Of a stretch of DNA of 32,236 nt, positions 3,460 through 32,093 are shown piece after piece. A model generated the notes under the pieces. It saw nothing but the letters and a program-made list of their open reading frames with translations, searched no databases and was not told where the DNA came from. Each line of letters opens with the position of its first letter. Positions within the stretch are counted from its first letter, which is position 1. Made by a program: the position numbers and the translations under genes. Origin of the DNA: an uncultured Ruminiclostridium sp. (GTDB lineage: Bacteria > Bacillota > Clostridia > Oscillospirales > Ruminococcaceae); NCBI GenBank assembly GCA_947624435.1, contig CANQKE010000029.1, positions 1 through 32,236 of the forward strand, in the 5' to 3' direction.

Positions 3460-4455
3460 TCAGTTAGCCGCCGCTTTCGCCGAATAGCCGGGCGAGCAGC
3501 TCTCTATTCTCACCAGATACTCATCGGAAAGTATCTTAGCGGTCTTTACCGACTTCCAGCCGACGCTTGAACGCTGATTGAGCGGGTCGTCGCCGTAGCC
3601 GAGCTGCTTTATGATGTGCTGAAGTCCGCCGCCAGTGATGTCGGTCACAGCGTACGCATGCGCGCCTATTACCAGTGTCGAGAACACCGCCAGCCCGTCC
3701 GGGCAGGTGCCGTCCTTGAATATCTTCGCCTCGGTGGATTTTACAAAGCGCACATTGCCTATGCAGCCTATCTCACCCTTGAAGATGTTGTCCGGCTCGG
3801 CGTACTTATGTACGTCCACCCACTCACTGCTTCTCATAAGATCGTAAGCCACATACGGGTGGATTATCGCCACATAGCTCTCTCCGTCAACGCCCTCGGC
3901 GTTCATCGACTCAAGCGCTGCCGCCGCCTTGAACACCACGTCGACGGTAAGCGCGCAGTCCGCGGTAAGCTCGCTTCTGCTCTTTACCTCCGTACCGTCG
4001 GACTTGGGCGCGTAGATAACGTTAGTACCCGCGTTTATCACCTCTCTGGTAACGGTGTCCAGCGTTCTTCCCGCCTGACCGCCGAGCAGCTTGGTGGACT
4101 GCACCACGTTATTATCTATCGCGGAAAGCTCCAGCATATCCGAAAGGCGGATATAGTCGCCGTACTGGTCTACCGTCGCGGTGACGGTGGATACAGTCAG
4201 GCTGTTGCCGTTGGGAGTAACGCCCTCGGTGAGCGGCGTGGTCGCCTTGGCAAGCGGGCTGTACTTTCTGAATTCTATCGACTTGCCGTTGTTCTTGGGT
4301 ATGGGGTACTTATCGGCAAAGCGGTCATGCACCAGCTTAGGCTCTGCCACGTCGATAAGCGTGCTTTCGTAAAAGGTCTTCATTTCATTGGTCAGCAGTC
4401 CGGTAGTCTGTACCGCTGTCTGGTCAAACTGTCTGAGGTCTGTTTTGATTCTCAT
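3460..4455 (-). CDS. Major capsid protein, N4-gp56 family
   Basis: This 331-residue protein starts at ATG 4455 with AAAGGAAA upstream. Features typical of the N4-gp56 capsid family are visible: an N-terminal LLTNEMKTFYESTLIDVAEP segment, the GKSIEFRKYSPLAKATTPLT loop with LTEGVTPNG, then VDQYGDYIRLSDMLELSAID, and a C-terminal domain with VAIIHPYVAYDLM, a GAHAYAVTDITGG strand and the NQRSSVGWKS segment. It forms the HK97-fold shell of the head. It follows the protease-scaffold gene and precedes the small protein and connector. The N-terminus (MRIKTDLRQFDQTA) has a QF pair that weakly recalls Prp cleavage sites; this is speculative. The family assignment is strong from the sequence pattern and gene order. 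Confidence 0.85.
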   Translation of the reverse strand: MRIKTDLRQFDQTAVQTTGLLTNEMKTFYESTLIDVAEPKLVHDRFADKYPIPKNNGKSIEFRKYSPLAKATTPLTEGVTPNGNSLTVSTVTATVDQYGDYIRLSDMLELSAIDNNVVQSTKLLGGQAGRTLDTVTREVINAGTNVIYAPKSDGTEVKSRSELTADCALTVDVVFKAAAALESMNAEGVDGESYVAIIHPYVAYDLMRSSEWVDVHKYAEPDNIFKGEIGCIGNVRFVKSTEAKIFKDGTCPDGLAVFSTLVIGAHAYAVTDITGGGLQHIIKQLGYGDDPLNQRSSVGWKSVKTAKILSDEYLVRIESCSPGYSAKAAAN

Positions 4456-4508: not shown

Positions 4509-5459
4509 TCACAGCTTTATACGCTCTCCGCGTTCCGCGCGGCGTATCAGCTCACTGCGCTGCTTTTTAGTAAGCGCGGCGGGCTTATGCTCTGCCGGCT
4601 CGCCGTCAGACAAAGCGCCCTCCCGCGTTCTTAGCCCGCTGCGGGCAAGCTGTCCGGCGGTCATATCATGCGATATCTTCGCGGCGTACTCCATCGCGCT
4701 GCGCAAAAGCTCCTCCCTATGGACAAGCTCGTATGCGCTGCGCAGGTCCAGCCCCTTGTACAGCAGCGAGAAAAAGTCCCTGTCACAAAGCGCCGCTTTC
4801 AGATCAAACGACGGATACAGCTCTTTCACCGCGCTCTCCTGCCCGCGCCATCTGCCGAGCATGGTTTCCAGCGTATGCTCACCGCGCTCACGGTTCACGG
4901 CGTCCTCAAGCGCGTTAAGGTCGCCGCGCCTTAATCCGTACCTTTCCGCCACCGCGTCAAGTATCCTGCTCTGGCGCGCGTTGTTTTCACTTTTAAGCTG
5001 TTTTACCTTCGAGAGAAAATGCTGCTCGCCGCTTTCGGGCTGCACTTCCGGAGTTTGCTCTGCTCCTTTCTCGGGCGCTGCGACGTCCTCCCCGTCAAAG
5101 CGGCAGAGATCGACGTTTCCCTGCACCTCCGGCAGCAGCGCAGAAGATACTCTTACCGTTTCGGGATAGCGCTCCGCAAGCAGAGCGAAGCCGGTCATCA
5201 TCGCGTCAAACGCACTGTTCACGCTGTCGTCGTCGGTGATGTAATCCATCAGCGCCTCGCCGGAATGCAGGTCCAGCGTGATTATGTCCGCTCTGCCCTC
5301 GTCCTCGGCGGACAGAAGATTTTCCGCCATGGTCTGGGTAAGTATGCTCAGCGCCGCGCAGATAAGATTGCCGCTCGTCATATCCTCCGTGCGGTCGGCA
5401 TGACCGGTTATGCTGAGCTTTCGCCCTAACAGATTCTTTTCGGCCGTTATCTCGGTCAT
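4509..5459 (-). CDS. Prp-like cysteine protease fused to a scaffold-like domain
   Basis: This 316-residue protein has ATG at 5459, overlapping the portal stop as ATGA, with AGGAGGTGA upstream. Residues 1 to about 110 match the Prp (YsxB/DUF464) family: ITGHA with His20, then LICAALSILTQTM with Cys34, and a second half MTGFALLAERYPETVRVSS. Prp is the host cysteine protease that trims ribosomal protein L27 in Firmicutes and also matures capsid and scaffold proteins of some staphylococcal phages. After an acidic linker (about 120-145) the rest is charged and helical (FLSKVKQLKSENN, RYGLRRGDLNALEDAVNRE), ending in basic helices, as expected of a scaffold that binds capsid protein. The gene sits between portal and capsid, the usual place of head protease and scaffold. 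The His-Cys gap is 14 residues, two more than I recall for staphylococcal Prp. Fusion and position are seen; self-cleavage is inferred. Confidence 0.75.
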   Translation of the reverse strand: MTEITAEKNLLGRKLSITGHADRTEDMTSGNLICAALSILTQTMAENLLSAEDEGRADIITLDLHSGEALMDYITDDDSVNSAFDAMMTGFALLAERYPETVRVSSALLPEVQGNVDLCRFDGEDVAAPEKGAEQTPEVQPESGEQHFLSKVKQLKSENNARQSRILDAVAERYGLRRGDLNALEDAVNRERGEHTLETMLGRWRGQESAVKELYPSFDLKAALCDRDFFSLLYKGLDLRSAYELVHREELLRSAMEYAAKISHDMTAGQLARSGLRTREGALSDGEPAEHKPAALTKKQRSELIRRAERGERIKL

Positions 5460-7069
5460 ATATCCTCACCTCCTTTCGCGGCGGGCTGCGCCGCGTTCTC
5501 CTTTATCATGCGTACTATGCTCTCCTTGCCCTCAAAATCCATCATATCAAGGCAGGCGAGCGCCTGTCCGCTAAGCTCCGGATTGAAAAATCCCAGCGAG
5601 AACAGCTCTTTGGCAAGCTCGTTTTGCGCCGCCTTGGAAAAGGGGGATTTCTTAGCCGCACGGCAGATTATATCGAACACCGGCTTTTTCGAGCCGAAAT
5701 CTATGCCGAACGCCGTTATCGGCTTAGCCGCAAGCATTTCCCCGCCAAAATCGGCAAACCCTCCGGTTATGCGAAAACTGCGCGGCTCGTCGTAAAACTC
5801 CCGTATCAGCTCTATCATCAGGCAGCACACCTTGGAAAACGCGTCATACGAGCCCTTGAGCATATCGCGGGACAGCTTGTTTCCCGCCTCCTGTAACGCC
5901 GCTATCGCGCTTGCCGCGGTCACCCCGTTTGAAGTTCCGCCCTGTGAAAAATCCCGGTTGCCGCTGGTCTCCTTGAGCTCCTGTATCTTTAAGTTCAGCG
6001 CGGGCATAACGGCGGGGTCCAGCGGGTCTATTTTTATCTCGCGGATATCGTCGTCGCTGATGTTCCCCGCCACATGGACAAACGGTCTGCGCCAGTCGGC
6101 AAACTCGTCCTCCTTTATCGCGCTGTTGTTCTTGATGAAAAAGCGCTTGCGCCCCATGCTTATGGTATGCTCGAGCAGCACCTGCCCCAGTCTGTCAATA
6201 TACATCTGTGCGTCCCGCATAACGTCTATGTAGCCGAAGCCGCAGGGCGAGCCCTCCACCGAAAACAGGCTGTCTATCACGAACGGGTATTGCCCGTGCG
6301 CATAAAATCCGTGGGCGCAGGCTTCGTCGTTTTCGCTGGAATACAGCACGGTATTCCCTACAAAGCGGCAGTAGTGGAGCTGTTTTTCCCCGTTTACGTA
6401 TTTCTTGTAGTACCAGTCTATCACGGCGGTCTTTTCGCTGTTGTCCACGTTGTCGTCATACTTGTAACCGGTAAGCATACCGCTGTCGCCGAGCTTTCCC
6501 TCAAGCTGCGGATACTGCCCGATAAGAAGATCGTTATCGCACAGCGATACATAAAACAGATTCGGACTTTGCTGTATATCCTTTATCCCCGGCTCCCAGA
6601 ACAGGTTCAGTATGTCTATATTCTTTATGCTTATATCCCCCGCTCCGTCGGCAAGCTCCGGATCCCACAGCACCGCCTGACAGCAGCTTCCGTTTTTCAG
6701 CTTATACCACCACATATCGCTGTACAGACGCTCGTAATCGCACCGCTCCAGCAGCGCGGGGAGTATCTTTGAAAGCTGCGAAGCGCATTCGCGGTCGCTT
6801 TGTTCCCGCGGCAATACCACCGGCTCCGGTATGTTGTCCATCGCGTCGGCATGCTTATTTGCTATGGAGTTGAACAGCCACGCCGACGCGGGGCGCGGTC
6901 TGCCCCGATCATACTCGTCCAAAGGCAGCTCGCCCCAGTGCCGCATTTTCCACCACTGTTCATTGGACACGATCCGCTTTTCAAGGTTCGCCTTTCCCTC
7001 GCGGTAACGCTTTAGTATCGCCGCCGCGCGCATTATCTCCGTTTCTCCTATTTTTTTGTTTGTACTCAT
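5456..7069 (-). CDS. Phage portal protein, P22-like
   Basis: This 537-residue protein starts with ATG at 7069, 26 bases after the terminase stop. The only good Shine-Dalgarno site (AAAGGAG) is unusually far, about 15 bases. It shows the P22-type portal pattern: an N-terminal helix with NEQWWKMRHWGELP, then RPRPASAWLFNSIANKHADAM, a middle region with DILNLFWEPGIKDIQQSPN, and PFVIDSLFSVEGSPCGFGYID before a long helix (DAQMYIDRLGQVLLEHTISM). GGTSNGVTAASAIAALQEAG is typical of the stem and crown of this family. The portal forms the dodecameric DNA channel at one capsid vertex and binds the terminase. It lacks the long barrel of P22 itself, being shorter than that protein. Assignment is firm from sequence and gene order. 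Confidence 0.85.
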   Translation of the reverse strand: MSTNKKIGETEIMRAAAILKRYREGKANLEKRIVSNEQWWKMRHWGELPLDEYDRGRPRPASAWLFNSIANKHADAMDNIPEPVVLPREQSDRECASQLSKILPALLERCDYERLYSDMWWYKLKNGSCCQAVLWDPELADGAGDISIKNIDILNLFWEPGIKDIQQSPNLFYVSLCDNDLLIGQYPQLEGKLGDSGMLTGYKYDDNVDNSEKTAVIDWYYKKYVNGEKQLHYCRFVGNTVLYSSENDEACAHGFYAHGQYPFVIDSLFSVEGSPCGFGYIDVMRDAQMYIDRLGQVLLEHTISMGRKRFFIKNNSAIKEDEFADWRRPFVHVAGNISDDDIREIKIDPLDPAVMPALNLKIQELKETSGNRDFSQGGTSNGVTAASAIAALQEAGNKLSRDMLKGSYDAFSKVCCLMIELIREFYDEPRSFRITGGFADFGGEMLAAKPITAFGIDFGSKKPVFDIICRAAKKSPFSKAAQNELAKELFSLGFFNPELSGQALACLDMMDFEGKESIVRMIKENAAQPAAKGGEDI

Positions 7070-7095: not shown

Positions 7096-8544
7096 TCAGA
7101 CACGGTAATATCCCGTTCTCATCTCGGTCAGCGGGTCGTCAAGGTCGATACGCTCAAGCGGCTTTTTGCGCGGCGCTATCGGGTGTTCCATCAGCACATA
7201 CCTGCACTCGTCGTAGATATGATCCTCCTGCGTGGTGTCTATATCCTCCGCGCGGTTTTCATCGTAGACCAGCGCCGGTATCGTCCGTATAAACTCCTTG
7301 CAGGTGTTAAAGCAGTAGAACATGGGGTACCCCTCTTCGTCGAATTTCAGCCGGTAATGGTACTGCATCTTCCCCGCTATTCTGGTATTGTCGCCGCCAC
7401 TCCACAGAATAAAATTCGGTGCGGCCGCCATAAGGTCCGCCACGCTCTCCCCGCGCGACCTGTCGAAGATAGACGGGTCGGCAACTCCGGTTATCGTCCT
7501 GCCTTTGAGATTCTCGTCCTCCGACTCTATCCGCTTTATATTCGCGGCTATCTCGGCGGGATTTATCTTTATTCCGGTGTTCGGCGTGTCGGTGCAGCCG
7601 TAATATTCCCTTATGCGGTACAGCCTGCCTTTCGTATCCGCCGCGTACCACCCCACCGAAAACGGTTTAGCATAGCCGAAGTCGAAGCCCCTTATCACCA
7701 CCCAGTCGCGCGGTATAGAAAACGGCGCGATAACATGGGTGAATTTGCGGTCGGCGTAATGCTGCGGATCGTCCGTCCATTCGGAAAATACCTGCCCCGA
7801 AAAGCTATCCCAGTCCCCGTACAGCAGCGCGCGTTTTTCCGCCTCCGGCAGCATCGCCAGCGCCGCGAGATACTCCGGGTCGTTGTCCAGCAATATCCGG
7901 TTATCAAACACGCTTGCCGGTATGAATATCCTTGAGCGCGACAACGTTATCGCCGTTCCGTCCGGCTTATGTACGGTGTAGTCGCTCTTTATCGGAGTCA
8001 TCGGCTTTGCCGCGGTGATGAACCTCTGTTTTACCCAGCCGTGCCCCACTCCGCCGGGATTTGCGGTAGCGCGGATATATACCCGCGTGCCCTCCCCGCC
8101 CGGACGGTTGCGGGAGAACATATAGCTGTATTCCTCCCATGAAAAGTGCGTCAGCTCGTCAAATCCGATAAAATCGTACCGCTTTCCCTGGTAGCTGGTC
8201 CGGTCCTTTGTGTACTGCATCGCGCCGAAGAATATTTTCGCTCCGGAGGGAAACTGCCAGCAGTGCTTGGTATCGTTGTACTTTGCCGAGGGGAACGCCC
8301 TGCCGTACAACTCGCGGGAACGGTCGATAAGCTCGGACAGCTGCGGGTAGGTCTTTCGCAGTATCAATGCCCGATAATGCGGTATATCCACCTGCCGCAA
8401 AGCCTCCGCTAACAGCGCGTCCGACTTGCCGCCGCCAGCCGCTCCGCCGTACAGCGCCTCATATTCCGGCCGCTGCATAAAAATTCGCTGCCGTTCCTGC
8501 GGCCGCCATAATACTCCGGCCTTTTCGCCGTTGCCAACGGTCAA
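7096..8544 (-). CDS. terL: Terminase large subunit
   Basis: This is a 482-residue DNA-packaging motor. The start is TTG at 8544, supported by GAGGAGGG six bases upstream inside the end of terS; no ATG fits. Walker A is GGAAGGGKS at residues 33-41; Walker B is YDFIGFDE with Asp129 and Glu130. The RNase H-like nuclease part starts with GFDFGYAKP and continues with GVADPSIFD, each supplying acidic metal ligands, and DHIYDECRYVLM near the end. It cuts concatemeric DNA and pumps it through the portal using ATP. It lies two bases after terS, so the two are probably translationally coupled. The motor and nuclease motifs appear intact. Confidence 0.92.
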   Translation of the reverse strand: MTVGNGEKAGVLWRPQERQRIFMQRPEYEALYGGAAGGGKSDALLAEALRQVDIPHYRALILRKTYPQLSELIDRSRELYGRAFPSAKYNDTKHCWQFPSGAKIFFGAMQYTKDRTSYQGKRYDFIGFDELTHFSWEEYSYMFSRNRPGGEGTRVYIRATANPGGVGHGWVKQRFITAAKPMTPIKSDYTVHKPDGTAITLSRSRIFIPASVFDNRILLDNDPEYLAALAMLPEAEKRALLYGDWDSFSGQVFSEWTDDPQHYADRKFTHVIAPFSIPRDWVVIRGFDFGYAKPFSVGWYAADTKGRLYRIREYYGCTDTPNTGIKINPAEIAANIKRIESEDENLKGRTITGVADPSIFDRSRGESVADLMAAAPNFILWSGGDNTRIAGKMQYHYRLKFDEEGYPMFYCFNTCKEFIRTIPALVYDENRAEDIDTTQEDHIYDECRYVLMEHPIAPRKKPLERIDLDDPLTEMRTGYYRV

Positions 8545-8546
8545 CG

Positions 8547-8984
8547 TTATCCCTCCTCATCGTCCAGCAGCTCGGGGAGTACCACCACCCCGCCGCTCTC
8601 CTCGTCGGGCTTTTCCTCCCACTGATACCCGCAGCGGTTTTTCAGCCAGAATATCTGCGCCGTCGTGCTGGGCATGACCTGCTTTTCCACTATCTTTACG
8701 GTCTCAAACTCGCCGGTCTTGCCGTTGAGCTGCCGTGTGACCTCGGTGGCGGTGTAGCCTACCGCTCTTTTCAGCAGCGCCTTTTCCACCGGATCGCGTA
8801 TGTTCTCCGCCGCCCTGACCGCCGCCCGCAGCTCGGGAAATTTCTTTTCCCACTGGCCGAGCGTCTTGGGGCTTATCCCTATTACGGCGGCTATCTCGGT
8901 ACGGCTGCTGCCGGACAGCGACATACCCTTGAGCCGCTCTAAAGAACGCTCGGTCAGCCATTCGTCGTACTTCGCCTTAACCAA
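8547..8984 (-). CDS. terS: Terminase small subunit
   Basis: The protein is 145 residues if it starts at TTG 8984 (reading MVKAKYDEWLTERSL). A longer frame to 9179 exists but its first 65 residues are the shifted reading of the zinc-ribbon gene. The core has SRTEIAAVIGISPKTLGQWEKK, a helix-turn-helix that binds the packaging site, then EKALLKRAVGYTATEV and PSTTAQIFWLKNRCGYQW, the usual C-terminal pattern of this family. The start overlaps the TAA of the zinc-ribbon gene by eight bases and has only a distant GGAAAGGGA, so coupling to that gene is likely. It recognises phage DNA and loads TerL. The family is clear; the exact start is less sure. Confidence 0.82.
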   Translation of the reverse strand: MVKAKYDEWLTERSLERLKGMSLSGSSRTEIAAVIGISPKTLGQWEKKFPELRAAVRAAENIRDPVEKALLKRAVGYTATEVTRQLNGKTGEFETVKIVEKQVMPSTTAQIFWLKNRCGYQWEEKPDEESGGVVVLPELLDDEEG

Positions 8985-9144
8985 ACCGCTGCGCGGACGT
9001 TTCCCTTTCCGCCGAGCCGCCGCAGTACGGACACGCCGCCACCTCCTCGTATGCCGGCCTGCCGCACCAGATCCCGCGATAAACTCTCGCCCTGTCTGTC
9101 TCGGAATCGTACAGCCGCCTGCCGCACTGTGTACATTTGTACAT
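8977..9144 (-). CDS. Small zinc-ribbon protein
   Basis: A 55-residue frame starts at ATG 9144, eight bases after AGGAGAGG, and ends at TAA 8977 inside the terS start. It reads MYKCTQCGRRLYDSE and, after 20-odd residues, AACPYCGGSAERE: two CxxC pairs that would bind one zinc ion. A third, unpaired Cys is in IWCGRP. Such short zinc ribbons often open the packaging module of Firmicutes phages; their role is unknown, and DNA or terminase binding is a guess. It is the first gene after the minus-strand promoter of the switch region. Its good ribosome site argues that this frame, not the overlapping longer ones, is used. Confidence 0.7.
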   Translation of the reverse strand: MYKCTQCGRRLYDSETDRARVYRGIWCGRPAYEEVAACPYCGGSAERETSAQRFG

Positions 9145-9254
9145 CTGTACATCCTCTCCTTTCTTTTGTCTTGCCGCATGACCCTTTAACGAAAAGTCTG
9201 TACGTTCTATCGTACCGATATTCTGCTATCATAAAGACGGCAGGAAAAGTTCGT

Positions 9255-9392
9255 CAACTTTTCGTTGTCTTAATAATAGCACGTTTTCTTCGTTTTGTCA
9301 ACAGTTTGTTGCGATAAAAATTAAAAATCAGCGATATTCACAATATTCGACAACACTTTGTTGATTTATCTTGACAAGTCAACAAAATGTAG
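9255..9392. promoter_or_regulatory. Cluster of four repressor operators (CAACA-N3-TGTTG)
   Basis: Four 13-base inverted repeats lie between the divergent genes: CAACTTTTCGTTG (9255-9267), CAACAGTTTGTTG (9299-9311), CAACACTTTGTTG (9351-9363) and CAACAAAATGTAG (9380-9392). The middle two are perfect 5-3-5 palindromes. Sites 1 and 2 flank or overlap the minus-strand promoter; site 3 is just upstream of the plus-strand -35; site 4 sits between its -35 and -10. They are the expected targets of the Cro/C1 protein encoded next to them. A fifth copy is at 9825-9837. Confidence 0.8.
9273..9301 (-). promoter_or_regulatory. Divergent promoter toward the phage structural genes
   Basis: On the minus strand TTGACA (9301-9296) and TATTAT (9278-9273) are separated by exactly 17 bases. 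Transcription would start near 9266 and enter the zinc-ribbon/terS operon. An operator copy (9299-9311) overlaps the -35 box and another (9255-9267) covers the start, so repressor binding should block it. Confidence 0.75.
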
Positions 9393-9399
9393 ATATAAT
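9371..9399 (+). promoter_or_regulatory. Promoter of the repressor gene
   Basis: TTGACA (9371-9376) and TATAAT (9394-9399), 17 bases apart, form a full consensus sigma-A promoter reading into the repressor gene at 9442. Operator 4 fills the spacer, which predicts negative autoregulation at high repressor level. Confidence 0.85.
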
Positions 9400-9441
9400 T
9401 ATATTCAGAAAACACCGAAACCAAAAAAGGGAGGTTTTAAT

Positions 9442-9780
9442 ATGAGTGTTTTTTCTGAAAACATAAGACGGCTGCGCGCGCAGAAAGGGGTATCTCAATC
9501 GGCGGTAGCGGACTATCTTAAGATCACCAAGCAGGCGTACAGCCTGTACGAAAACGGAAGGAGAGAGCCGGACTTCGACACGCTGGTCAAGCTGGCTGAA
9601 TACTTCGGCACCGACGTGGACTGTCTGCTCAAAAATGCGGAGGACGCATTTATATCCGACAGCAGGCTTAAATTCGCGCTGTTCGGCGACGCCGAGATAG
9701 ACGACGACGTATTGGACGACGTCAAGCGTCTGGCAAAGCTGCAATTGGAGCTTCGCCGCAGCAAGGAAGAAAACAAATAG
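9442..9780 (+). CDS. Cro/C1-type HTH repressor (ImmR-like)
   Basis: This 112-residue protein starts at ATG 9442, preceded by GGGAGG; an upstream in-frame extension lacks a ribosome site. Residues 5-62 form a helix-turn-helix of the XRE family: IRRLRAQKGVSQSAVADYL, then KQAYSLYENGRREPDFDTL and LAEYFGTDVDCLL. A short acidic linker and a basic helical tail (VKRLAKLQLELRR) follow, possibly for dimerisation. It is followed by an ImmA-like peptidase gene, the classic pair in ICEBs1 and many prophages, where ImmA cleaves the repressor on DNA damage. It should bind the five 13-base operators and hold the structural operon silent. The HTH is certain; the binding sites are inferred. Confidence 0.88.
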   Translation: MSVFSENIRRLRAQKGVSQSAVADYLKITKQAYSLYENGRREPDFDTLVKLAEYFGTDVDCLLKNAEDAFISDSRLKFALFGDAEIDDDVLDDVKRLAKLQLELRRSKEENK

Positions 9781-9824
9781 TTGATTTTTTAAGGCTTTAT
9801 TCCAAAATATAGAAAAAATATAAA

Positions 9825-9837
9825 CAACATTTTGTAG
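9825..9837 (+). promoter_or_regulatory. Fifth operator copy upstream of immA
   Basis: CAACATTTTGTAG matches operator 4 in both half-sites. It lies 16 bases before the immA start in the gap after the repressor gene, so the repressor could limit expression of its own antagonist. No convincing separate promoter is visible in this AT-rich gap. Confidence 0.6.
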
Positions 9838-9853
9838 ACAAAGAGGTGATACA

Positions 9854-10261
9854 ATGAACCGACTTTTAAGGATAGCCGGAGAAAATGACATTCCTATCGT
9901 GGATATGCGGCTGAAAGGAAAGGAAGAGGCGCTCAGCGAAAGCTGCGGCGGCCGCTGTATAATCGCGATAGACCGCCGCAAGGTGAAGAGCCGACGGGAC
10001 TACAAGGTAAAGGCGGCGCACGAGCTGGGGCATTGTATCACCGGTTCGTTTTACGACGCGAGCTGTCCGGTCGTTCCGCGCGGCAGATGTGAGCGCAGAG
10101 CGGAAAAGTGGGCGGTGCGCAACACCGTTTCCCCAAGTGAGCTAAAAGCCTCGCTAAAAAGCGGCATGACCGAAGTCTGGGAGCTTGCCGAGCATTTCGG
10201 CGTGACCGAAGAATTTATGATAAAGGCTCTTAAATATTACGGCATGTGGAACGGAGACTAA
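9854..10261 (+). CDS. immA: ImmA/IrrE-family metallopeptidase
   Basis: This 135-residue protein starts at ATG 9854 with AGAGGTGAT just upstream. The zinc-binding HExxH motif is AAHELGHCITG, with His56, Glu57 and His60; RRAEKWAVRN at about residue 81 supplies the likely third ligand Glu84. The C-terminal part (ELAEHFGVTEEFMIKALKYYG) is the usual small helical domain that contacts the partner. In ICEBs1 the ImmA protease cuts the ImmR repressor and so derepresses the element after DNA damage. Gene order repressor-immA matches that system. It is the last phage gene; the host rnf promoter follows within about 65 bases, so the right end of the element lies between. Confidence 0.85.
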   Translation: MNRLLRIAGENDIPIVDMRLKGKEEALSESCGGRCIIAIDRRKVKSRRDYKVKAAHELGHCITGSFYDASCPVVPRGRCERRAEKWAVRNTVSPSELKASLKSGMTEVWELAEHFGVTEEFMIKALKYYGMWNGD

Positions 10262-22654: not shown

Positions 22655-23746
22655 TTACTTTTTAGTGGAAGCCGAACCGTTCTTCCATGCGCCGTAGATT
22701 GTACTTGAACCGCTGGTCTTGTACGCCCTTATACGAACGCTGTATTTCGTGTTCTTAGCAAGGCTCTTTATCGTGTAAGAGGTGGTTTTCGCGCTCTTTA
22801 TCGTGTAGGAAACCCACTTGCCGTTTTTCTGTATTTGCAGCTGATAGCCTGTCGCACTTGCGTTTTTGCTCCACTGTAAAGTCATTGAGCTTGTGGTCTT
22901 GCTCTTCAGCTTAAATCCTGTCATATTCGACGGCGAAGTATTTACCGAACCGGTTTTCCATGCGCCGTAAATAGTGCTTGAACCGTTGGTTTTGTACGCC
23001 CTTACGCGAACATTGTACTTAGTGCCTGCGGAAAGACTCTTAACGGTGTATGACGTGGTGGAATTGCCCTTAACGGTGTAGCTTACCCACTTGCCGCCTT
23101 TGTAAACGCCTACTTGATAACCTGATGCACTGGCGTTCTTAGTCCATGATAATTTGACTGAATTTACACCGCGCGACGCTAATTTGAACCCGGTCATATT
23201 CGACGGCGAAGTGTTCACCGAACCGGTTTTCCATGCTCCGTATATGGTGCTTGAACCGTTGGTTTTGTAAGCGCGAACACGAACACTGTATTTTGTTCCC
23301 GCGGAAAGACTCTTAACGGTATAAGAGGTCGTGCCGTTGCCCTTAACGGTGTAGCTTACCCACTTGCCGCCCTTGTAAACGCCTACCTGGTAGCCGCTGG
23401 CGCTGGAGTTTTTAGTCCATGATAATTTGACGGAGTTTACACCGCGCGACGCTAATTTGAATCCGGTCATGTTAGAGGGTGAAGTGTTCGCCGAGCCGGT
23501 TTTCCATGCGCTGTAAACGGTATTTTCGCCGGATTTTACGAACGCTCTCACTCTCAGCGGATAATACGTTCCCGCAGAAAGTCCGGTTATCGTGTAAGAA
23601 ACCGTCGATCCGCTGTTTATCGTTGCCGCTTTGCTCCACTTACCGTTTTTCTGTATCTCAAGCTCGTAGCCGGACGCACCGCTTGCTTTGCTCCAGGAAA
23701 GCTTCAAAGAATTTACCCCGCGGGATACGAGCGAGAATTTAGAGAT
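22655..23746 (-). repeat. Four tandem Fn3 modules of the LRR protein
   Basis: Four units of about 270 bases encode Fn3 domains beginning ISKFSLVSRGVNS, MTGFKLASRGVNS (twice) and MTGFKLKSKTTSS. The second and third are nearly identical in protein and DNA, and closely match modules at 29081-30169 in the GH5 gene. Confidence 0.85.
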
Positions 23747-25537
23747 ATTGCCGACCTTAGCGACAAATTTTATATTATTATCTTTTGCGTATTTCTCAGC
23801 GGTCGAGCCGATGTAACCATAAATTACAAGATCATCGCTGTGCCCATAAAAAGCACCTTCTCCTATATTTGTCACGCTGTCGGGTATGGTTATTGAAGTA
23901 AGACTTGAACAATTCTCAAAAGCATAATTTCCTATACTCTTCACGCTATCAGGTATGGTTATTGATGTAAGACTATAGCAACGCTCAAAAGTATAATCTC
24001 CTATACTTGGCACACCGTCAGGTATATTTATTGCGGTAAGGCTTGAACACTCGTCAAAAGCATAATCTCCTATACTCTTCACGCTGTCGGGTATAGTTAT
24101 TGAGGTAAGGCCTTTACAAAACCTAAAAGCAAAATCTCCTATGCTCGTCACGCTGTCAGGTATGGTTATTGAGGTAAGACTTGAACAATCCTCAAAAGTC
24201 GCGTCTCCTATACTCGTTACACCGTCAGGTATATTTATTGTGGTAAGGCTTGAACAACCGTTAAAAGCGCCATCTTCTATACTAGTAACGCTGTCGGGTA
24301 TGGTTATTGAAGTAAGGCTTGAACAGTCAAAAAAAGCCCAACCTCCTATACTTGTCACACTGTCAGGTATGGTTATTGGAGTAAGGATTGAACAATACCA
24401 AAAAGCATGCTCTCCTATACTTGTAACACTGTCAGGTATAGTTATTGAGGTAAGATTGCGACAAGATTCAAAAGCATCATCAGCTATGCCTACGGTTCCG
24501 CTTTTTATGGTTGCGATTTCTGCGTTTTCATCACAATCAATTACCCATTTCCCTGCATACTTTACTGTTGTTGTTTGATTATAAAGAAAAGGAGTGCCTG
24601 AAAACGCATAACTTCCTATGCTCGTAATGCTGTCGGGTATGGTTATTGAGGTAAGGCTTTTGCAAGAAGCAAAAGCTCCGCCCACTATTCCTACAGTACC
24701 GCTTTTTATGGTTGCGGTTTTTGCATTTTCATCACAATCAACAACCCATTTTCCGGCATATTTTACCGTGGTTGTCTGATTGTCAAGAAACGGAGCACCC
24801 CAAAATGGGTTGCTTCCCATATTTGTAATGCTGTCGGGTATTTTGACGGAGGAAAGGCTTGTACAACCGTAAAACGCACGATCTCCTATACTCGTAATGC
24901 TGTCGGGTATTGTTATTGATTCAAGACTTGAACAACCCACAAAAGTCTCAGAAAATATAATTTTCACGCTGTCGGGTATATTTATTGAGGTAAGGCCTTC
25001 ACAAAACTTAAAAGCATTAGCTCCTATGCTCGTAACTCCGTCGGGTATTATATACCCTCCCTCTTTACCCGTAGGATATTCTATAATTTCAGTCAGGTCT
25101 TTATTAAACAACACACCATCTTTTGAAGTATAATTCGCGTTATTCTTATCTACAGTTATTGAGACAAGGAAATAGCAATATAAAAAAGTGCTATCGTCTA
25201 TACGCGTCACACTGCTAGGTATTGTTATTGAGGTAATGCTTGAGAAATTAAAAGCATAAGATTCTATGCTCGTAACTCCGTCGGGTATGGCTACAGAGGT
25301 AATGCTATCACAATATGCAAAAGCCCAACTTCCTATCCTTGTCACCTTTTTACCGTCAATAGTTGCAGGTACAGTCAAATCGGTCGCATTTCCGGTATAG
25401 TCGGTTATCTCGACCGTTCCGTCGTAAAGTATGCGATATTCATAGTCCCCGCTTGTTTCCGCGCCGGCGCATAAAGCACACGCCGCGCAAATTGTCAGGG
25501 CGCCTATAAGCACCGCTAACATCTTCTTAAATATCAT
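22655..25537 (-). CDS. Secreted BspA-type leucine-rich repeat protein with four Fn3 domains
   Basis: This 960-residue protein is counted from ATG 25537, with GGAGG close upstream. A signal peptide is visible (MIFKKMLAVLIGALTICAAC to CAGAE). After a short beta segment, about 20 units of 23 residues follow (SITIPDSVTSIGDYAF, then CSSLT), the LRR_5 type of BspA surface proteins. Two units are interrupted by an insert with TTTVKYAGKWVVDCDENA. Residues 598-960 form four Fn3 domains of 89-92 residues; the middle two are almost identical. There is no LPxTG motif, dockerin or S-layer domain, so it is probably released or held by the Fn3 region. Such proteins bind host or polysaccharide ligands; the target here is unknown. 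It is transcribed divergently from the propeller-like gene. Confidence 0.88.
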   Translation of the reverse strand: MIFKKMLAVLIGALTICAACALCAGAETSGDYEYRILYDGTVEITDYTGNATDLTVPATIDGKKVTRIGSWAFAYCDSITSVAIPDGVTSIESYAFNFSSITSITIPSSVTRIDDSTFLYCYFLVSITVDKNNANYTSKDGVLFNKDLTEIIEYPTGKEGGYIIPDGVTSIGANAFKFCEGLTSINIPDSVKIIFSETFVGCSSLESITIPDSITSIGDRAFYGCTSLSSVKIPDSITNMGSNPFWGAPFLDNQTTTVKYAGKWVVDCDENAKTATIKSGTVGIVGGAFASCKSLTSITIPDSITSIGSYAFSGTPFLYNQTTTVKYAGKWVIDCDENAEIATIKSGTVGIADDAFESCRNLTSITIPDSVTSIGEHAFWYCSILTPITIPDSVTSIGGWAFFDCSSLTSITIPDSVTSIEDGAFNGCSSLTTINIPDGVTSIGDATFEDCSSLTSITIPDSVTSIGDFAFRFCKGLTSITIPDSVKSIGDYAFDECSSLTAINIPDGVPSIGDYTFERCYSLTSITIPDSVKSIGNYAFENCSSLTSITIPDSVTNIGEGAFYGHSDDLVIYGYIGSTAEKYAKDNNIKFVAKVGNISKFSLVSRGVNSLKLSWSKASGASGYELEIQKNGKWSKAATINSGSTVSYTITGLSAGTYYPLRVRAFVKSGENTVYSAWKTGSANTSPSNMTGFKLASRGVNSVKLSWTKNSSASGYQVGVYKGGKWVSYTVKGNGTTSYTVKSLSAGTKYSVRVRAYKTNGSSTIYGAWKTGSVNTSPSNMTGFKLASRGVNSVKLSWTKNASASGYQVGVYKGGKWVSYTVKGNSTTSYTVKSLSAGTKYNVRVRAYKTNGSSTIYGAWKTGSVNTSPSNMTGFKLKSKTTSSMTLQWSKNASATGYQLQIQKNGKWVSYTIKSAKTTSYTIKSLAKNTKYSVRIRAYKTSGSSTIYGAWKNGSASTKK
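23870..25345 (-). repeat. Tandem 69-base LRR-coding repeats
   Basis: About 20 degenerate copies of a 69-base unit encode 23-residue leucine-rich repeats with the core ITIPDSVTSIGDYAF. Spacing breaks only where the two KYAGKW inserts occur. This is coding repetition, not a CRISPR array. Confidence 0.85.
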
Positions 25538-25582
25538 ATCTTCCTCCGTTCCCTGCCGATGGCAGTGATTTATTTCCATTTT

Positions 25583-25611
25583 ATTTTATCACAAAATTAT
25601 ATGTTTGTCAA
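25583..25611 (-). promoter_or_regulatory. Promoter of the LRR/Fn3 gene
   Basis: TTGACA (25611-25606) and TAAAAT (25588-25583), 17 bases apart, are preceded by TTTTATCGCAT. The same arrangement, TTTTATCGAATTTGACA with 17 bases to TAAAAT, occurs before the GH5 gene, so the two are probably co-regulated. Confidence 0.8.
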
Positions 25612-25702
25612 ATGCGATAAAATTATTTTTGAAATCACGTATAATATTTACATTATATAGTATTAGTGGCACGGCGGAAATATCCGGCTCCGATATTAAA
25701 GC

Positions 25703-25731
25703 TTGACACTGTTACCAAATAATGTTATAAT
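25703..25731 (+). promoter_or_regulatory. Consensus promoter of the propeller/LRR/Fn3 gene
   Basis: TTGACA (25703-25708) and TATAAT (25726-25731) are 17 bases apart, with TGT giving an extended -10. It is a full sigma-A consensus. The leader is about 39 bases. The gap to the divergent promoter at 25611 holds nothing else that I recognise. Confidence 0.88.
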
Positions 25732-25771
25732 ATTAGCGAATATATGCACTTTATGTGTAGAGGAGGAAAAC

Positions 25772-25780
25772 ATGAAATGA
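25772..25780 (+). CDS. Two-codon leader frame overlapping the main start
   Basis: ATGAAATGA encodes Met-Lys-stop. AGGAGG (25761-25766) is five bases before this ATG and ten before the main ATG at 25777, whose ATGA overlaps the stop. Initiation at the first and reinitiation at the second is possible; it may also be chance. Confidence 0.35.
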   Translation: MK

Positions 25781-28700
25781 AAAAATTTATCAGCTTATCC
25801 ATTGCCTTGATATCGTTCTTGCTTTTTGAGATGTTCGCACCTGCAAATTTAACGGTGACGCCGCTGCGGGCGGATGCCGCCGGAAATTTACTGCCTACGG
25901 GAAAGGATAACCTTCCAACTCCTCGGTTGATCAGCTCCTCTGATCTTGTCGCCACAAAAGCCGGCCTTATGCGGGTGTTTTACGACGGCAGCAAGATCCG
26001 AATCGAAAATTATGATGATTCCTTTCAGATACAAAGCAAAAAATCTCTGGACATGGAACTTAGTCTGTGGGGAGGATTTTACGCGGGTTCGGACTCCTAT
26101 TATATTGTAGAAGGGCAGAATAATACCGAGGAAGACGACGACGCCGAAGTCATCCGGGTAATTCGCTACGACACCTCCTGGAACCGCAAAGGCGCGGCAA
26201 AGATCACCGGCAACCCGCAGCTGTTCGGCGGCGATGTTCGCTATCCCTTTGACTATGGTTGTGTGGAAATGACGGAATACAACGGAAAGCTGTATGTCGT
26301 TACCGGTCACGAGGGCTATGTAGATCCTATGTATAATCAGGGACATCAGGGCTTTTTGATGTTAGAAGTGGACGAAGCCACCATGACTGGCCAGATCGTT
26401 GACTGCGATCATTGGCACTCCTTTGCTCAATATATCGCGAATAAAGGCTCCGATCTCTATGTGTTAGAGCAGAGCGAGGGCTCACGCTGCACCAAACTTT
26501 CCCGATACAGAACGGGGGATTTGTACAATTCCGACTCTATCCCCGTTCTTAATTACGGAGGTTCCCGTGATTCCGCCTGGGCTATTGCGTGCTGTGCCAG
26601 TGTGGACGGCATGGCTCTCTCCGATAAAAATATACTGTGTTTAGGTACCTCCATCGATCAGGATAATTACGATAATGCTACCTCCTATACACCGTATAAT
26701 ATTTATCTGACGATCACTCCCATGGCCGATTTTACCGAGGACGCTACCAAGGTAAAATGGCTCACCGATTATACCGACGAAGGAAAGAGCTTTTTAGGAG
26801 CTAAAATAACCAAGATCAACGATGATCGGTTCATGATCTCCTGGGAGGAATACAACCCAATCCAAACGGCGAGCACAGATGATTCCCTTTCGGGATCGGT
26901 GCTTCATTATCTGTTTGTCAATGGCAGCGGAGAAAAATTGACTAAAGAATTTACAGCGGCGGCTCCCATTTCGGATTGTCAGCCTATTGTTAAGGATTCT
27001 AAAGTGTTCTATTACGCCTCCAACGGCAGCATGGTGAATTTTTACACTATCGATGCGAATACCGGCGCTTTCAGCAAAAAATCTTACCGTGTGGCGGGAG
27101 AAAACGCCACATGGTCGTATAAAAACGGCACGTTGACAATTTCGGGCACGGGAGCGATCTCTGTAAGGAATTCGGTTTACCGAAACCCGTGGCAGGCACT
27201 CAGGGAGCAGGTGACTAAGCTGGTCATAAACAGCGGGATCACTTCTATTTCCGATGAAGCCTTTAATTACTTTGACAAATTAACAGAGGTAGATATCGCC
27301 TCCGGTGTTAAGAGTATCGGCAATAAGGCTTTTGCCTACAATCCGGAATTGGAAAAAATCACGATACCCGCCAGCGTGACGCAGATAGGAGAAGATGCTC
27401 TGTGGACGGGCTCTTATTGGATCAGCGACCACAGCCATGTGGTCTATGCAACGATCTACGGCAAGGCCGGCTCTTATGCCCAGACTTATGCCAAAAATAA
27501 CAAAATTATATTTTCAGCGGTATTGGACACGCCGAAGCTGAACAAGGTAGAAAATACCGCGACAGGCGTTAAGATAAGCTGGGGCGAAGTGTCAGGCGCC
27601 AAAAAATACCGTGTGTTCTACAATACCGCCTCCGGTTGGAAAAAGATCGCAGATACTACCGGCACCAGCTACACCTGGAAAGGCGCAAAGAGCGGCACTG
27701 AGTACAGCTTTACGGTGCGATGCGTCGATCTTGACGGAACATATACCAGCTCTTATGATAAAACAGGAAAGAGCATTACCTATATTGCGGCCCCCGGTAA
27801 ACTCGCCGCCGAAAGCGTAAACGGCGGTATCAAGGTAAGCTGGAACAAGGTGGACGGAGCCGCGAAATACCGTGTATATTACAAAACCGGAAACGGCAGC
27901 TGGACTAAAATAGCGGACACGACTTCGACAAGCTATACCTGGAAAGGCGCAAAGGCCGGCACCACCTATAAATTTACGGTAAGATGCTTAAGCAGCGATG
28001 CAAAATACTTTACCAGCAGCTATAACTCCACCGGAGTTTCCGCAAAATATATAGCCACTCCAAAGCTGACGTCGGTCGCTAACACCTCGTCGGGAGTAAA
28101 GCTCAGCTGGAATTCCTCCAAAGGCGCGGCGAAATACCGAGTATTTTACAAGACCGCGTCCGGCTGGAAAAAGATCGCCGATATCACCTCGACAAGCTAC
28201 ACCTGGAAAGGCGCTAAAAGCGGCACGACCTACACCTTTACCGTAAGATGCGTAAGCAGCGATTCCAAGAGCTTTACCAGCGGATATGACAGCACCGGCA
28301 AAACGCTGAAACGTCTTGCCCAGCCGAATATTTCCAATCTGGAGGTCAATAATTCCGGCGTAAAAATAACCTGGAACAAGGTAGCGGGCGCGTCGACCTA
28401 CAAGGTATATTACAAAACCGCTTCGGGCTGGAAGCAGCTTAGGAACACCGCCTCGAACTCCTGCACAATAAACGCGACAATGAACAAAAGCTACACCTAT
28501 ACGGTAAAAGCGGTCAGCGGAAGTTATAACAGCAGCTACAATTCTTCCGGCAGTACGATAAAGAGGATAAATACCCCTGCAAAGCCTACCGCCGTCAAAA
28601 CGTCCACCGGATATAAATTATCCTGGAATAAGATCACCGGCGCAGGAAAATACAGGATATATTACAAAACCGCTAACGGAAGCTGGAAAAAGCTCTCAGA

Positions 28701-28836
28701 TACGACTTCCACGAGCTACACCTGGAACAATATGCCTAAAGGAACTACCTACTATGTTACCGTAAGATGCCTAAGCGCCGACGGAAAACAATTCACCAGC
28801 GGTTACAATACCACCGGCACTTCGATAAAACGATAA
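25777..28836 (+). CDS. Secreted propeller-like / LRR / five-Fn3 protein
   Basis: This 1019-residue protein is counted from ATG 25777 (MKKFISLSIALISFLLFEMF), a clear signal peptide. Residues 35 to about 430 are beta-rich with repeating short blades (LMRVFYDGSKIRIENYDD, YNGKLYVVTGHEGYVDP, SDLYVLEQSEGSRCTKL), suggesting a beta-propeller; I do not recognise a named family. Residues 440-560 hold a few LRR_5-like units (LVINSGITSISDEAF, IASGVKSIGNKAFAYN). From about 582 five Fn3 domains follow, with cores SGAKKYRVFYNTASGWKKI and TSYTWKGAKSG. These Fn3 modules differ from those of the neighbouring genes. No anchor motif is seen. An extracellular binding or adhesion role is inferred. It has its own strong promoter and a terminator at 28888. 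Confidence 0.82.
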   Translation: MKKFISLSIALISFLLFEMFAPANLTVTPLRADAAGNLLPTGKDNLPTPRLISSSDLVATKAGLMRVFYDGSKIRIENYDDSFQIQSKKSLDMELSLWGGFYAGSDSYYIVEGQNNTEEDDDAEVIRVIRYDTSWNRKGAAKITGNPQLFGGDVRYPFDYGCVEMTEYNGKLYVVTGHEGYVDPMYNQGHQGFLMLEVDEATMTGQIVDCDHWHSFAQYIANKGSDLYVLEQSEGSRCTKLSRYRTGDLYNSDSIPVLNYGGSRDSAWAIACCASVDGMALSDKNILCLGTSIDQDNYDNATSYTPYNIYLTITPMADFTEDATKVKWLTDYTDEGKSFLGAKITKINDDRFMISWEEYNPIQTASTDDSLSGSVLHYLFVNGSGEKLTKEFTAAAPISDCQPIVKDSKVFYYASNGSMVNFYTIDANTGAFSKKSYRVAGENATWSYKNGTLTISGTGAISVRNSVYRNPWQALREQVTKLVINSGITSISDEAFNYFDKLTEVDIASGVKSIGNKAFAYNPELEKITIPASVTQIGEDALWTGSYWISDHSHVVYATIYGKAGSYAQTYAKNNKIIFSAVLDTPKLNKVENTATGVKISWGEVSGAKKYRVFYNTASGWKKIADTTGTSYTWKGAKSGTEYSFTVRCVDLDGTYTSSYDKTGKSITYIAAPGKLAAESVNGGIKVSWNKVDGAAKYRVYYKTGNGSWTKIADTTSTSYTWKGAKAGTTYKFTVRCLSSDAKYFTSSYNSTGVSAKYIATPKLTSVANTSSGVKLSWNSSKGAAKYRVFYKTASGWKKIADITSTSYTWKGAKSGTTYTFTVRCVSSDSKSFTSGYDSTGKTLKRLAQPNISNLEVNNSGVKITWNKVAGASTYKVYYKTASGWKQLRNTASNSCTINATMNKSYTYTVKAVSGSYNSSYNSSGSTIKRINTPAKPTAVKTSTGYKLSWNKITGAGKYRIYYKTANGSWKKLSDTTSTSYTWNNMPKGTTYYVTVRCLSADGKQFTSGYNTTGTSIKR
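27523..28833 (+). repeat. Five tandem Fn3 modules of the propeller-like protein
   Basis: Five units of about 250 bases start LDTPKLNKVEN, IAAPGKLAAES, IATPKLTSVAN, LAQPNISNLEV and INTPAKPTAVK. Each carries YRVYYKTxxGSW-like and TSYTWKG-like cores. They form a second Fn3 subfamily, distinct from the MTGFKL type in the adjacent genes. Confidence 0.8.
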
Positions 28837-28887
28837 TATATGACCCGACTCCAAAAAGTCGGACAAAAATTCGGAAGAAAATTATAC

Positions 28888-28920
28888 AAAGCGACTAAGA
28901 GCGATCTTGGTCGCTTTTGT
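28888..28920 (+). terminator. Terminator of the propeller/LRR/Fn3 gene
   Basis: AAAGCGACTAAG pairs with CTTGGTCGCTTT (one G-U pair) around a 6-base loop, giving a 12-base stem that runs into TTTTGTT. It begins about 50 bases past the stop. A smaller hairpin, CCGACT-AGTCGG, lies at 28845-28862. Confidence 0.75.
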
Positions 28921-29058
28921 TATGCAGTGTTTATCGGCGAAAGTTCCTCCTTTTGCATAGTTTCCGGCGTGGATTTTTGCTTTCCTTTGGGCATAAAAAT
29001 ATCCCCTTTCGTCAGACTTTGATTTTGTTGTCTAACAAAAGGGGAACTTGTTCAAAAG
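28920..29058 (-). mobile_element. Relic of an IS3-like element left end with truncated ORF
   Basis: On the minus strand CCCCTTTTGTTAGAC (29044-29030) is followed after 12 bases by GTCTGACGAAAGGGG (29017-29003), then ATG at 28994 and a 24-residue frame MPKGKQKSTPETMQKEELSP ending at TAA 28920. The same end, better preserved, starts at about 32155 in the opposite orientation, where 33 bases carrying a promoter separate the two arms. Here the promoter segment is deleted and the transposase frame is cut, so the copy is dead. Its edge at about 29058 cuts into the terminator hairpin of the GH5 gene. Confidence 0.65.
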
Positions 29059-29080
29059 GGACTGCGCCGTTATTTATTCG

Positions 29081-30169
29081 TTACTTTTTAGTGGATGCCG
29101 AGCCGGTTTTCCATGCGCCGTAGATTGTGCTAGAACCGCTTGTCTTGTACGCCCTTATACGAACGCTGTACTTCGTGTTTTTAGCAAGGCTTTTTATCGT
29201 GTAAGAGGTGGTTTTCGCGCTCTTTATTGTGTAAGAAACCCACTTGCCGTTTTTCTGTATTTGCAGTTGGTAGCCGGTAGCGCTTGAGTTCTTGCTCCAC
29301 TGCAAGGTAAGCGAGCTTGTAGTCTTGCTTTTCAGCTTAAATCCTGTCATATTCGACGGCGAAGTATTTACCGATCCGGTCTTCCATGCGCCGTAGATAG
29401 TGCTAGAACCGCTGGTTTTGTATGCTCTTACGCGAACGTTGTATTTCGTTCCCGCCGATAAACCGCTGACGGTGTAAGAGGTCGTACCGTTGCCTTTAAC
29501 GGTGTAGCTTACCCACTTGCCGCCCTTGTAAACGCCGACTTGATAACCTGACGCGCTGGTGTTTTTAGTCCATGATAATTTGACGGAATTTACCCCGCGC
29601 GACGCTAATTTGAACCCGGTCATATTCGACGGCGAAGTGTTCACCGAGCCGGTCTTCCATGCGCCGTAGATGGTGCTTGAACCGTTGGTTTTATAAGCAC
29701 GAACGCGAACGTTGTATTTCGTTCCTGCCGACAAACCGCTGACAGTGTAAGAAGTCGTACCGTTGCCCTTAACGGTGTAGCTTACCCACTTGCCGCCCTT
29801 GTAAACGCCGACTTGATAACCTGACGCGCTGGTATTTTTAGTCCATGACAGCTTAACGGAGTTTACCCCGCGCGAGGCTAATTTGAATCCTGTCATATTC
29901 GACGGCGCGGTGTTCACCGAGCCGGTCTTCCATACGCCGTAAATATCCTTGCCGTTTATCGTTTTGTATGCACGAACGCGAACGTTGTATTTCGTTCCTG
30001 CCGACAAACCGCTGACGGTATAAGAGGTCGTGCCGTTGCCTTTAACGGTGTAGCTTACCCACTTGCCGCCCTTGTAAACGCCTACCTGGTAACCTGACGC
30101 GGCAGCGTTTTTATTCCACGACAATTTAACTGAGTTTACCCCGCGGGACGCGAGCTTGAACCCTGTCAT
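29081..30169 (-). repeat. Four tandem Fn3 modules of the GH5 protein
   Basis: Three units of 91 residues beginning MTGFKLASRGVNSVKLSW and one of 89 beginning MTGFKLKSKTTSS. They are close to identical with one another and with modules two to four of the LRR protein, including the terminal GSASTKK. Confidence 0.85.
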
Positions 30170-32047: not shown

Positions 32048-32093
32048 ATATTCCTCCGTTCCCTGCAATTAACAGTAAAATTTTTATTATTTT

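Follow-up and report, generated by a model that had tools for sequence, protein, structure and literature searches.

Based on the analysis of a DNA stretch of 32,236 nucleotides, referred to here as the window, we consider it probable that a phage of a gut bacterium owns a self-separating Prp-scaffold protein with a shifted specificity, the steps that lead to cleavage being predicted from sequence and a structure model. Sequence and model give the protease domain, its fold, the kept catalytic dyad, the gene order and the conserved motifs (Table 1). In the mechanism that we propose, a Prp-family protease would be joined to a scaffold by a flexible linker in one head-assembly protein. The protease, which we infer to be active at both the junction and the capsid bonds, would cut its own linker at DLCRF121/D122 (the slash marks the scissile bond) and so be split from the scaffold, and it would cut the capsid N-terminus at DLRQF10/D11, by which ten residues would be removed. 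These cuts, made in cis or in trans, could come soon after translation, as in a small polyprotein, or else within the procapsid.

Table 1. Features of the fusion gene and its neighbours, with positions in the window
Feature	Position	Strand	Basis or remark
Prp-scaffold fusion gene	4509..5459	minus	one open frame, 316 aa plus stop, reads 5459 to 4509
Prp-type cysteine protease domain, residues 1-106	5142..5459	minus	
Catalytic His20 (SaPrp His22)	5400..5402	minus	aligned catalytic column
Catalytic Cys34 (SaPrp Cys34)	5358..5360	minus	aligned catalytic column
Loop Ser29, Gly30, Asn31 (SaPrp Gly29/Asp31 positions)	5367..5375	minus	differs from canonical G-x-D
Disordered linker, residues 107-143	5031..5141	minus	pLDDT 45-56 in 10-residue blocks 111 to 140
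GGAGGTG, possible remnant of a ribosome-binding site for the scaffold alone	5124..5130	minus	9 nt upstream of GTC
Predicted junction cleavage site VDLCRF121/D122	5094..5114	minus	alignment and conservation
Scaffold-like helical part, residues 144-316	4512..5030	minus	helices in model; phrog_13908
Major capsid protein, N4-gp56 family, 331 aa	3460..4455	minus	TIGR04387 306.8 bits; phrog_1357
Predicted capsid N-terminal site TDLRQF10/D11	4423..4443	minus	blind finder 8.2
Portal protein, P22-like	5456..7069	minus	PF16510 71.3 bits; phrog_156
Terminase large subunit	7096..8544	minus	PF03237; phrog_979
Terminase small subunit	8547..9179	minus	phrog_309 134 bits

An earlier note on this DNA had placed a fusion gene between portal and capsid, and this was borne out, with the gene on the minus strand. 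It is the sole gene between the two, with the capsid gene downstream; the fusion frame shares 4 bases with the portal gene, and AAGGAGGTG is found immediately 5' of its ATG. Profile matches of the neighbours put it beside portal and capsid in the head module, and a head-assembly protein gene of a podovirus-like prophage is the best explanation. The prophage apparently continues past the contig end at position 1. At its other side, plus-strand frames at 9358-10261, named from reading their translations as helix-turn-helix repressor-like and metallopeptidase-like (AHELGH), separate the phage genes from a host Rnf-like operon starting at 10412. The window also holds, at 22655-32068, three very long repeat frames that look leucine-rich and fibronectin-like by eye, the last one also cellulase-like.

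The N-terminal domain belongs to the Prp family (C108) of cysteine proteases, as judged from profiles and the predicted model. Pfam Peptidase_Prp (PF04327) matched residues 1-102 with 32.9 bits against a cut-off of 27, and PHROG phrog_4478, labelled 'peptidase', matched residues 1-105 with 65.9 bits. The earlier note had read a Prp-type protease with His20 and Cys34 and had proposed a structural comparison to check it; the modelled domain takes the Prp fold, and both residues fall in the catalytic columns. The catalytic pattern is G19 H20, C34 and S38, with Gly before His and Ser four positions after Cys. Equivalents of His20 were found in all 97 complete sequences among 98 distinct phage Prps (95 by alignment, L249 and L250 by eye), and Cys34 likewise has its equivalent in all 97. 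The NCBIfam equivalog level of the ribosomal-processing Prp was not reached (21.4 bits vs 136), and the prp of the window is not located between rplU and rpmA but in the head operon.

The loop before the catalytic Cys is different. The Gly29/Asp31 pair of SaPrp, a feature of the ribosomal enzyme that we did not take as family-defining, is absent in the window, which has Ser29 and Asn31. Asp31 is present in 44/44 host Prps and is missing in 21 of the 97 complete distinct phage members. The replacement, seen in the sequence, points to either a changed specificity or a loss of activity. As the SaPrp mutant D31A is described as inactive (PMC9405229), the window domain with its Asn31 and Ser29 could be weak or dead. 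It might then be a catalytically dead domain that now serves the scaffold as a structural or binding domain, the junction motif being a mere linker feature. The exchange of residues that matter in SaPrp would fit such a history, as would the scaffolds of several near relatives in which no clear site is seen, but we regard it as unlikely: His, Cys and Ser38 are nonetheless kept at just 14-26% identity to solved Prps, and sites are still present in the capsids, where they vary together with the loop.

Residues 107-316 appear in the predicted model as a low-confidence linker and helices. The function-unknown family phrog_13908 matched the C-terminal part, with residues 195-316 in the best stretch. 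The fusion to a scaffold-like region described in the earlier note is supported, and the position between portal and capsid together with the helices suggests that the C-terminal half is a scaffold. Within the linker, the only residues invariant in the five distinct window-clade proteins are Q113, D117, L118, C119, F121 and G123, and DLC-F is kept in 5/5 window-clade fusions, which argues against a dead domain as well; the invariance test over 8 residues was made post hoc. The window sequence NVDLCRF/D aligns with the M[MVI][DEN]LQ[LM]F/[AG] junctions of 23 Faecalibacterium-type fusions. The window junction scores -3.1 with a matrix of ribosomal L27 sites and 3.9 with a blind finder (both explained below), under the threshold in each case, so that it is conservation and alignment that carry this prediction. 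Going beyond the earlier note, the sequence makes two Prp sites likely, one where protease and scaffold are joined and one near the N-terminus of the capsid protein. That note had also spoken of a self-removing scaffold, which goes too far: one junction cut separates the protease from the scaffold, which is not in itself a removal of the latter. In the fusion of locus L017 (4595-5680), two tandem site-like motifs were observed in the linker, DLQLF/A and MLQLF/A.

An ATG is present at the junction site in 24/29 distinct fusions. Of these junction ATGs, 18/24 come with a Shine-Dalgarno-like match (minimum 4 nt) vs 94/311 other in-frame ATGs (Fisher 1.9e-5, the loci being related). The codon near GGAGGTG is ATG in L200, GTG in L094 and GTC in both L088 and the window, so an internal start for a free scaffold is absent at the window junction. 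If GGAGGTG is indeed a relic left without a start codon, the window scaffold would be made solely as the fusion, and a free scaffold would need cleavage.

For the search of relatives we used phrog_13908, the profile of the scaffold-like part, chosen as it does not select for Prp. It matched 17/297 genomes of the family and 58/394 of the order, the two sets overlapping. The 74 fetched stretches, minus L251 (no scaffold-profile match) and plus the window, gave 74 loci. The prp was fused in 8 and separate, upstream of the scaffold, in 41; a portal with no Prp counted was found in 15 and neither in 10. One of the 15 (L234) does carry a Prp-like frame overlapping the scaffold. The search proposed earlier for the same fusion beside other capsid genes, made with a profile grown from the window capsid, did find it; as an arrangement the fusion recurs, but most relatives have a separate prp (41/74 loci vs 8/74 fused). 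When viral and genome collections and phage records were added to the 74 loci, 142 loci with a scaffold match were obtained, repeats included, and 34 of these were fused. Distinct by Prp and site letters were 29 fusions: 23 of the Faecalibacterium type, one in an Oscillospiraceae MAG (L090) and five in the window clade (the window, L088, L094, L196 and L200).

An assembly artefact is unlikely, because the fusion recurs in L088, another assembly cut by a contig end whose fused copy is 94% identical to that of the window, and because homologous fusions are present in three other genomes of the same genus (L196, L200 and L094, the record of which is identical to L198). On a portal tree that holds 26 of the 29 distinct fusions, the fused or separate state needs 3 changes, one each for the Faecalibacterium group, the window clade and L090; the tree was made by a quick method without a mixture model and comes with a long-branch warning.

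Candidate cleavage sites were surveyed in two ways. For the L27 matrix we took host rplU-prp-rpmA loci only, whose L27 proteins supplied 30 distinct sites; it was applied to N-terminal regions, and with its threshold set at a score of at least 5, 0/200 portal/terminase N-terminal controls reached 5. The blind finder is a matrix that ignores P3 and P1', for which 200 controls gave a 99th percentile of 5.64 and a largest value of 6.39. With repeated records included, L27-type sites were found at fused loci in 28/33 capsids and 28/34 junctions, and at separate-prp loci in 63/77 capsids and 41/79 scaffolds. At loci with a portal in view but no Prp, they occurred in 2/14 capsids and 3/16 scaffolds, and where neither was seen in 9/12 capsids and 3/13 scaffolds. 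The six low-scoring fused junctions (the window, L088, L094, L196, L198 and L200) all belong to the window clade and have the variant DLC[RQ]F/[DG]. The four window-clade capsid starts in reach read IKTDLRQF/D, INVNLRQF/D, IKVCLDQF/D and IKICLTQF/D. The window capsid site has 1.3 with the L27 matrix, below threshold, and passes the blind finder only. In another Prp-bearing phage locus, a later gene (L140, 4263-4733) starts with MLLQLFANEA, which looks like a Prp site in one more protein, perhaps of the tail.

These results also bear on the idea that an active domain trims the capsid N-terminus only, the intact fusion bringing the protease into the procapsid and both parts leaving together. The window capsid site outscores the junction (8.2 vs 3.9), and separate-prp relatives of the window clade in the same genus (L182, L185, L201 and L202) have a clear site in the capsid and none in the scaffold. 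That the junction site is seen in all three fusion groups, and that an invariant DLC-F stands within a variable linker (by the post hoc test mentioned above), makes trimming of the capsid alone improbable in our view, and we retain the reading in which the protease would cut at both places.

The host genome keeps a canonical rplU-prp-rpmA locus with an L27 of the sequence MIKISLQHF/AHK. The phage thus carries a Prp copy of its own, as the earlier note had said, beside that of the host. The co-occurrence of Prp and capsid sites was determined for 62 of the 74 loci, in each of which a capsid gene could be seen along with a portal or a Prp. Of the other 12, two show no capsid gene, and in ten both portal and Prp are missing. 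A capsid site above the blind threshold was present at 42/49 loci with Prp vs 3/13 without (p 3.5e-5), and the seven sub-threshold Prp loci show site-like residues near the capsid N-terminus by eye. Nine of the ten loci with neither portal nor Prp have a capsid gene, and as 7 of those 9 have a capsid site, such sites do not require a neighbouring Prp; with these loci counted, 10/22 no-Prp loci have sites (Fisher 0.00095). By analogy with phage 80alpha, Prp-less phages with sites may use the host Prp. Five loci (L179, L214, L215, L216 and L220) have a canonical capsid or scaffold site with no Prp within about 5 kb and may rely on the host in this way.

It could accordingly be asked whether the host Prp cuts the phage proteins here too, as it does for 80alpha, the phage copy having another task such as host-protein processing. 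A host Prp and a long L27 are present, and Prp-less loci with canonical sites exist (L215 in the capsid, L216 in the scaffold). What makes cutting by the host Prp only less likely is that the window sites lack P3 Gln; they lack P1' Ala as well, unlike the host site. In addition the phage copy sits within the head operon, and its loop changes together with the sites of the phage proteins; we consider this explanation very improbable.

The covariation of loop and sites was examined with sites located by the blind finder. After repeats in Prp and site letters were removed there were 102 loci with a Prp, and 86 of these entered both the counts and the tree. Dropped for a short portal, missing capsid gene, unreadable loop or sub-threshold capsid site were 16 loci (L004, L005, L010, L020, L048, L051, L068, L070, L088, L098, L106, L114, L188, L208, L217 and L248). 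The register of the capsid site was corrected by hand in six (L062, L245, L014, L182, L199 and L201), and sub-threshold capsid sites were retained in three (L196, L205 and L233). Loop residue 29 is the position five before the catalytic Cys. It is a post hoc choice, made after the exceptions to Asp31 proved to be without Gly29, and it follows a published contact, as in SaPrp the P3 Gln is described to form hydrogen bonds with Gly29 and Asp31 (PMC9405229). Gly29 was found with P3 Gln at 63 loci and without it at 3, whereas another residue was found with P3 Gln at 0 and without it at 20 (Fisher 9.7e-17). The three exceptions, which have Gly29 but lack P3 Gln (L203, L206 and L209), are the loci whose loop is very short. 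On well-supported branches of the portal tree, 8 independent pairs differ in residue 29, and P3 follows in 7 of them and is opposed in 0 (p 0.016). The covariation agrees with these published hydrogen bonds, and in the window Ser29 and Asn31 are paired with P3 Cys at the junction and P3 Arg in the capsid. The specificity thus appears to have moved away from the host L27-type site with its P3 Gln, together with the loop.

Two other links were tried and rejected. The link between residue 31 and an acidic P1' was strong in the raw counts (66/1 vs 6/13, Fisher 4e-10), but it may reflect shared ancestry since just 1.1 of 4 independent pairs agree. Residue 31 taken alone also fails with P3, with 2.2 of 4 pairs the same and 1.0 opposed.

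One of the closest described systems is that of S. aureus, in which the host Prp cuts scaffold and capsid of phage 80alpha (PMC5744158). It shares with the window prediction a Prp-type dyad protease and N-terminal sites of scaffold and capsid (PMC5744158, PMC9405229). In 80alpha the protease is the host's, separate, and acts on L27-type sites (LQxF/A), whereas in the window it belongs to the phage and is fused, and both its loop and its sites are altered. Neither cleavage is reported as needed for 80alpha viability, the scaffold N-terminus is, and procapsids already contain the cut proteins (PMC5744158).

The earlier note had called this protease class atypical for phage heads. Unusual it is, yet with a precedent, because Streptococcus phage Cp-1 carries a head protease placed in Prp family C108, which is described to remove 48 residues of the head protein (PMC12445089). 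Cp-1 is therefore like the window in having a phage-borne enzyme of this family and a trimmed capsid N-terminus, the latter predicted in the window. The Cp-1 protease may correspond to ORF13 (L258, 8805-9119), a protein of 104 aa annotated as hypothetical that has the GH...C..VS pattern and a very short loop and that falls short of the PF04327 cut-off (18.5 bits vs 27). If so, the Cp-1 protease is encoded by a separate 104-aa gene, whereas the window protease is fused. The N-terminal 70 residues of the capsid protein of Cp-1 contain no L27-like site (best score -5.2).

Among named phages, phiFL3A, Fontainebleau, TMW 1.1365 P3, PLgT-1 and Krappator27 (L253-L257; 5 chosen of 24 records) have a Prp in the head module, and L27-like sites were found in 5/5 of their scaffolds and 5/5 of their capsids; Krappator27 has a second, shorter feature labelled major head protein that is without a site. 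The Cp-1 precedent and these five phages indicate that head proteases of the Prp type encoded by the phage itself are already known and are probably common. The Prp of Fontainebleau has Asn at position 31 together with P3 Gln and P1' Asp.

The Faecalibacterium-type prophages (23/29 distinct fusions) are like the window in gene order, fusion and junction site, and differ from it in their canonical GQD loop and [DEN]LQ[LM]F/[AG] junctions. Their ATG at the site may start a free scaffold, a start that the window lacks. In phage lambda, C and Nu3 share one gene with an internal start, and the gpC protease is of the serine class. This resembles the window in that protease and presumed scaffold are in one frame, and differs in that the window protease is a cysteine protease and has no internal start at the junction. 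C is the lambda protease and Nu3 the scaffold (PMC3224144).

In F. prausnitzii, 'cysteine protease prp and terminase-like family' is among the enriched labels of a co-expression study (PMC9674144). By title and abstract, no paper with the Prp-scaffold fusion as its topic was found, and earlier notice in Wall 2015/2017, Martin 1998 or Hotinger 2022 is possible. In the literature searched we found no earlier description of the fusion with its junction site or of the loop-site covariation.

Taken in its full form, the reading is that of a cis-acting, self-separating cysteine-protease scaffold, in which loop and sites were re-coded together, orthogonal to the ribosome-processing Prp of the host, the fusion having arisen about three times; to this we lean by a small degree. 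If true, Prp would serve as a dedicated, fused head protease instead of a borrowed host enzyme. These phages would also provide natural protease-substrate pairs in which the loop around SaPrp Gly29 and P3 of the substrate changed together, which makes the published contact testable. The head-module Prps of L253-L257 carry the labels 'peptidase', 'ribosomal protein' or hypothetical, and the finding gives a reading for phage genes that are merely labelled in this way.
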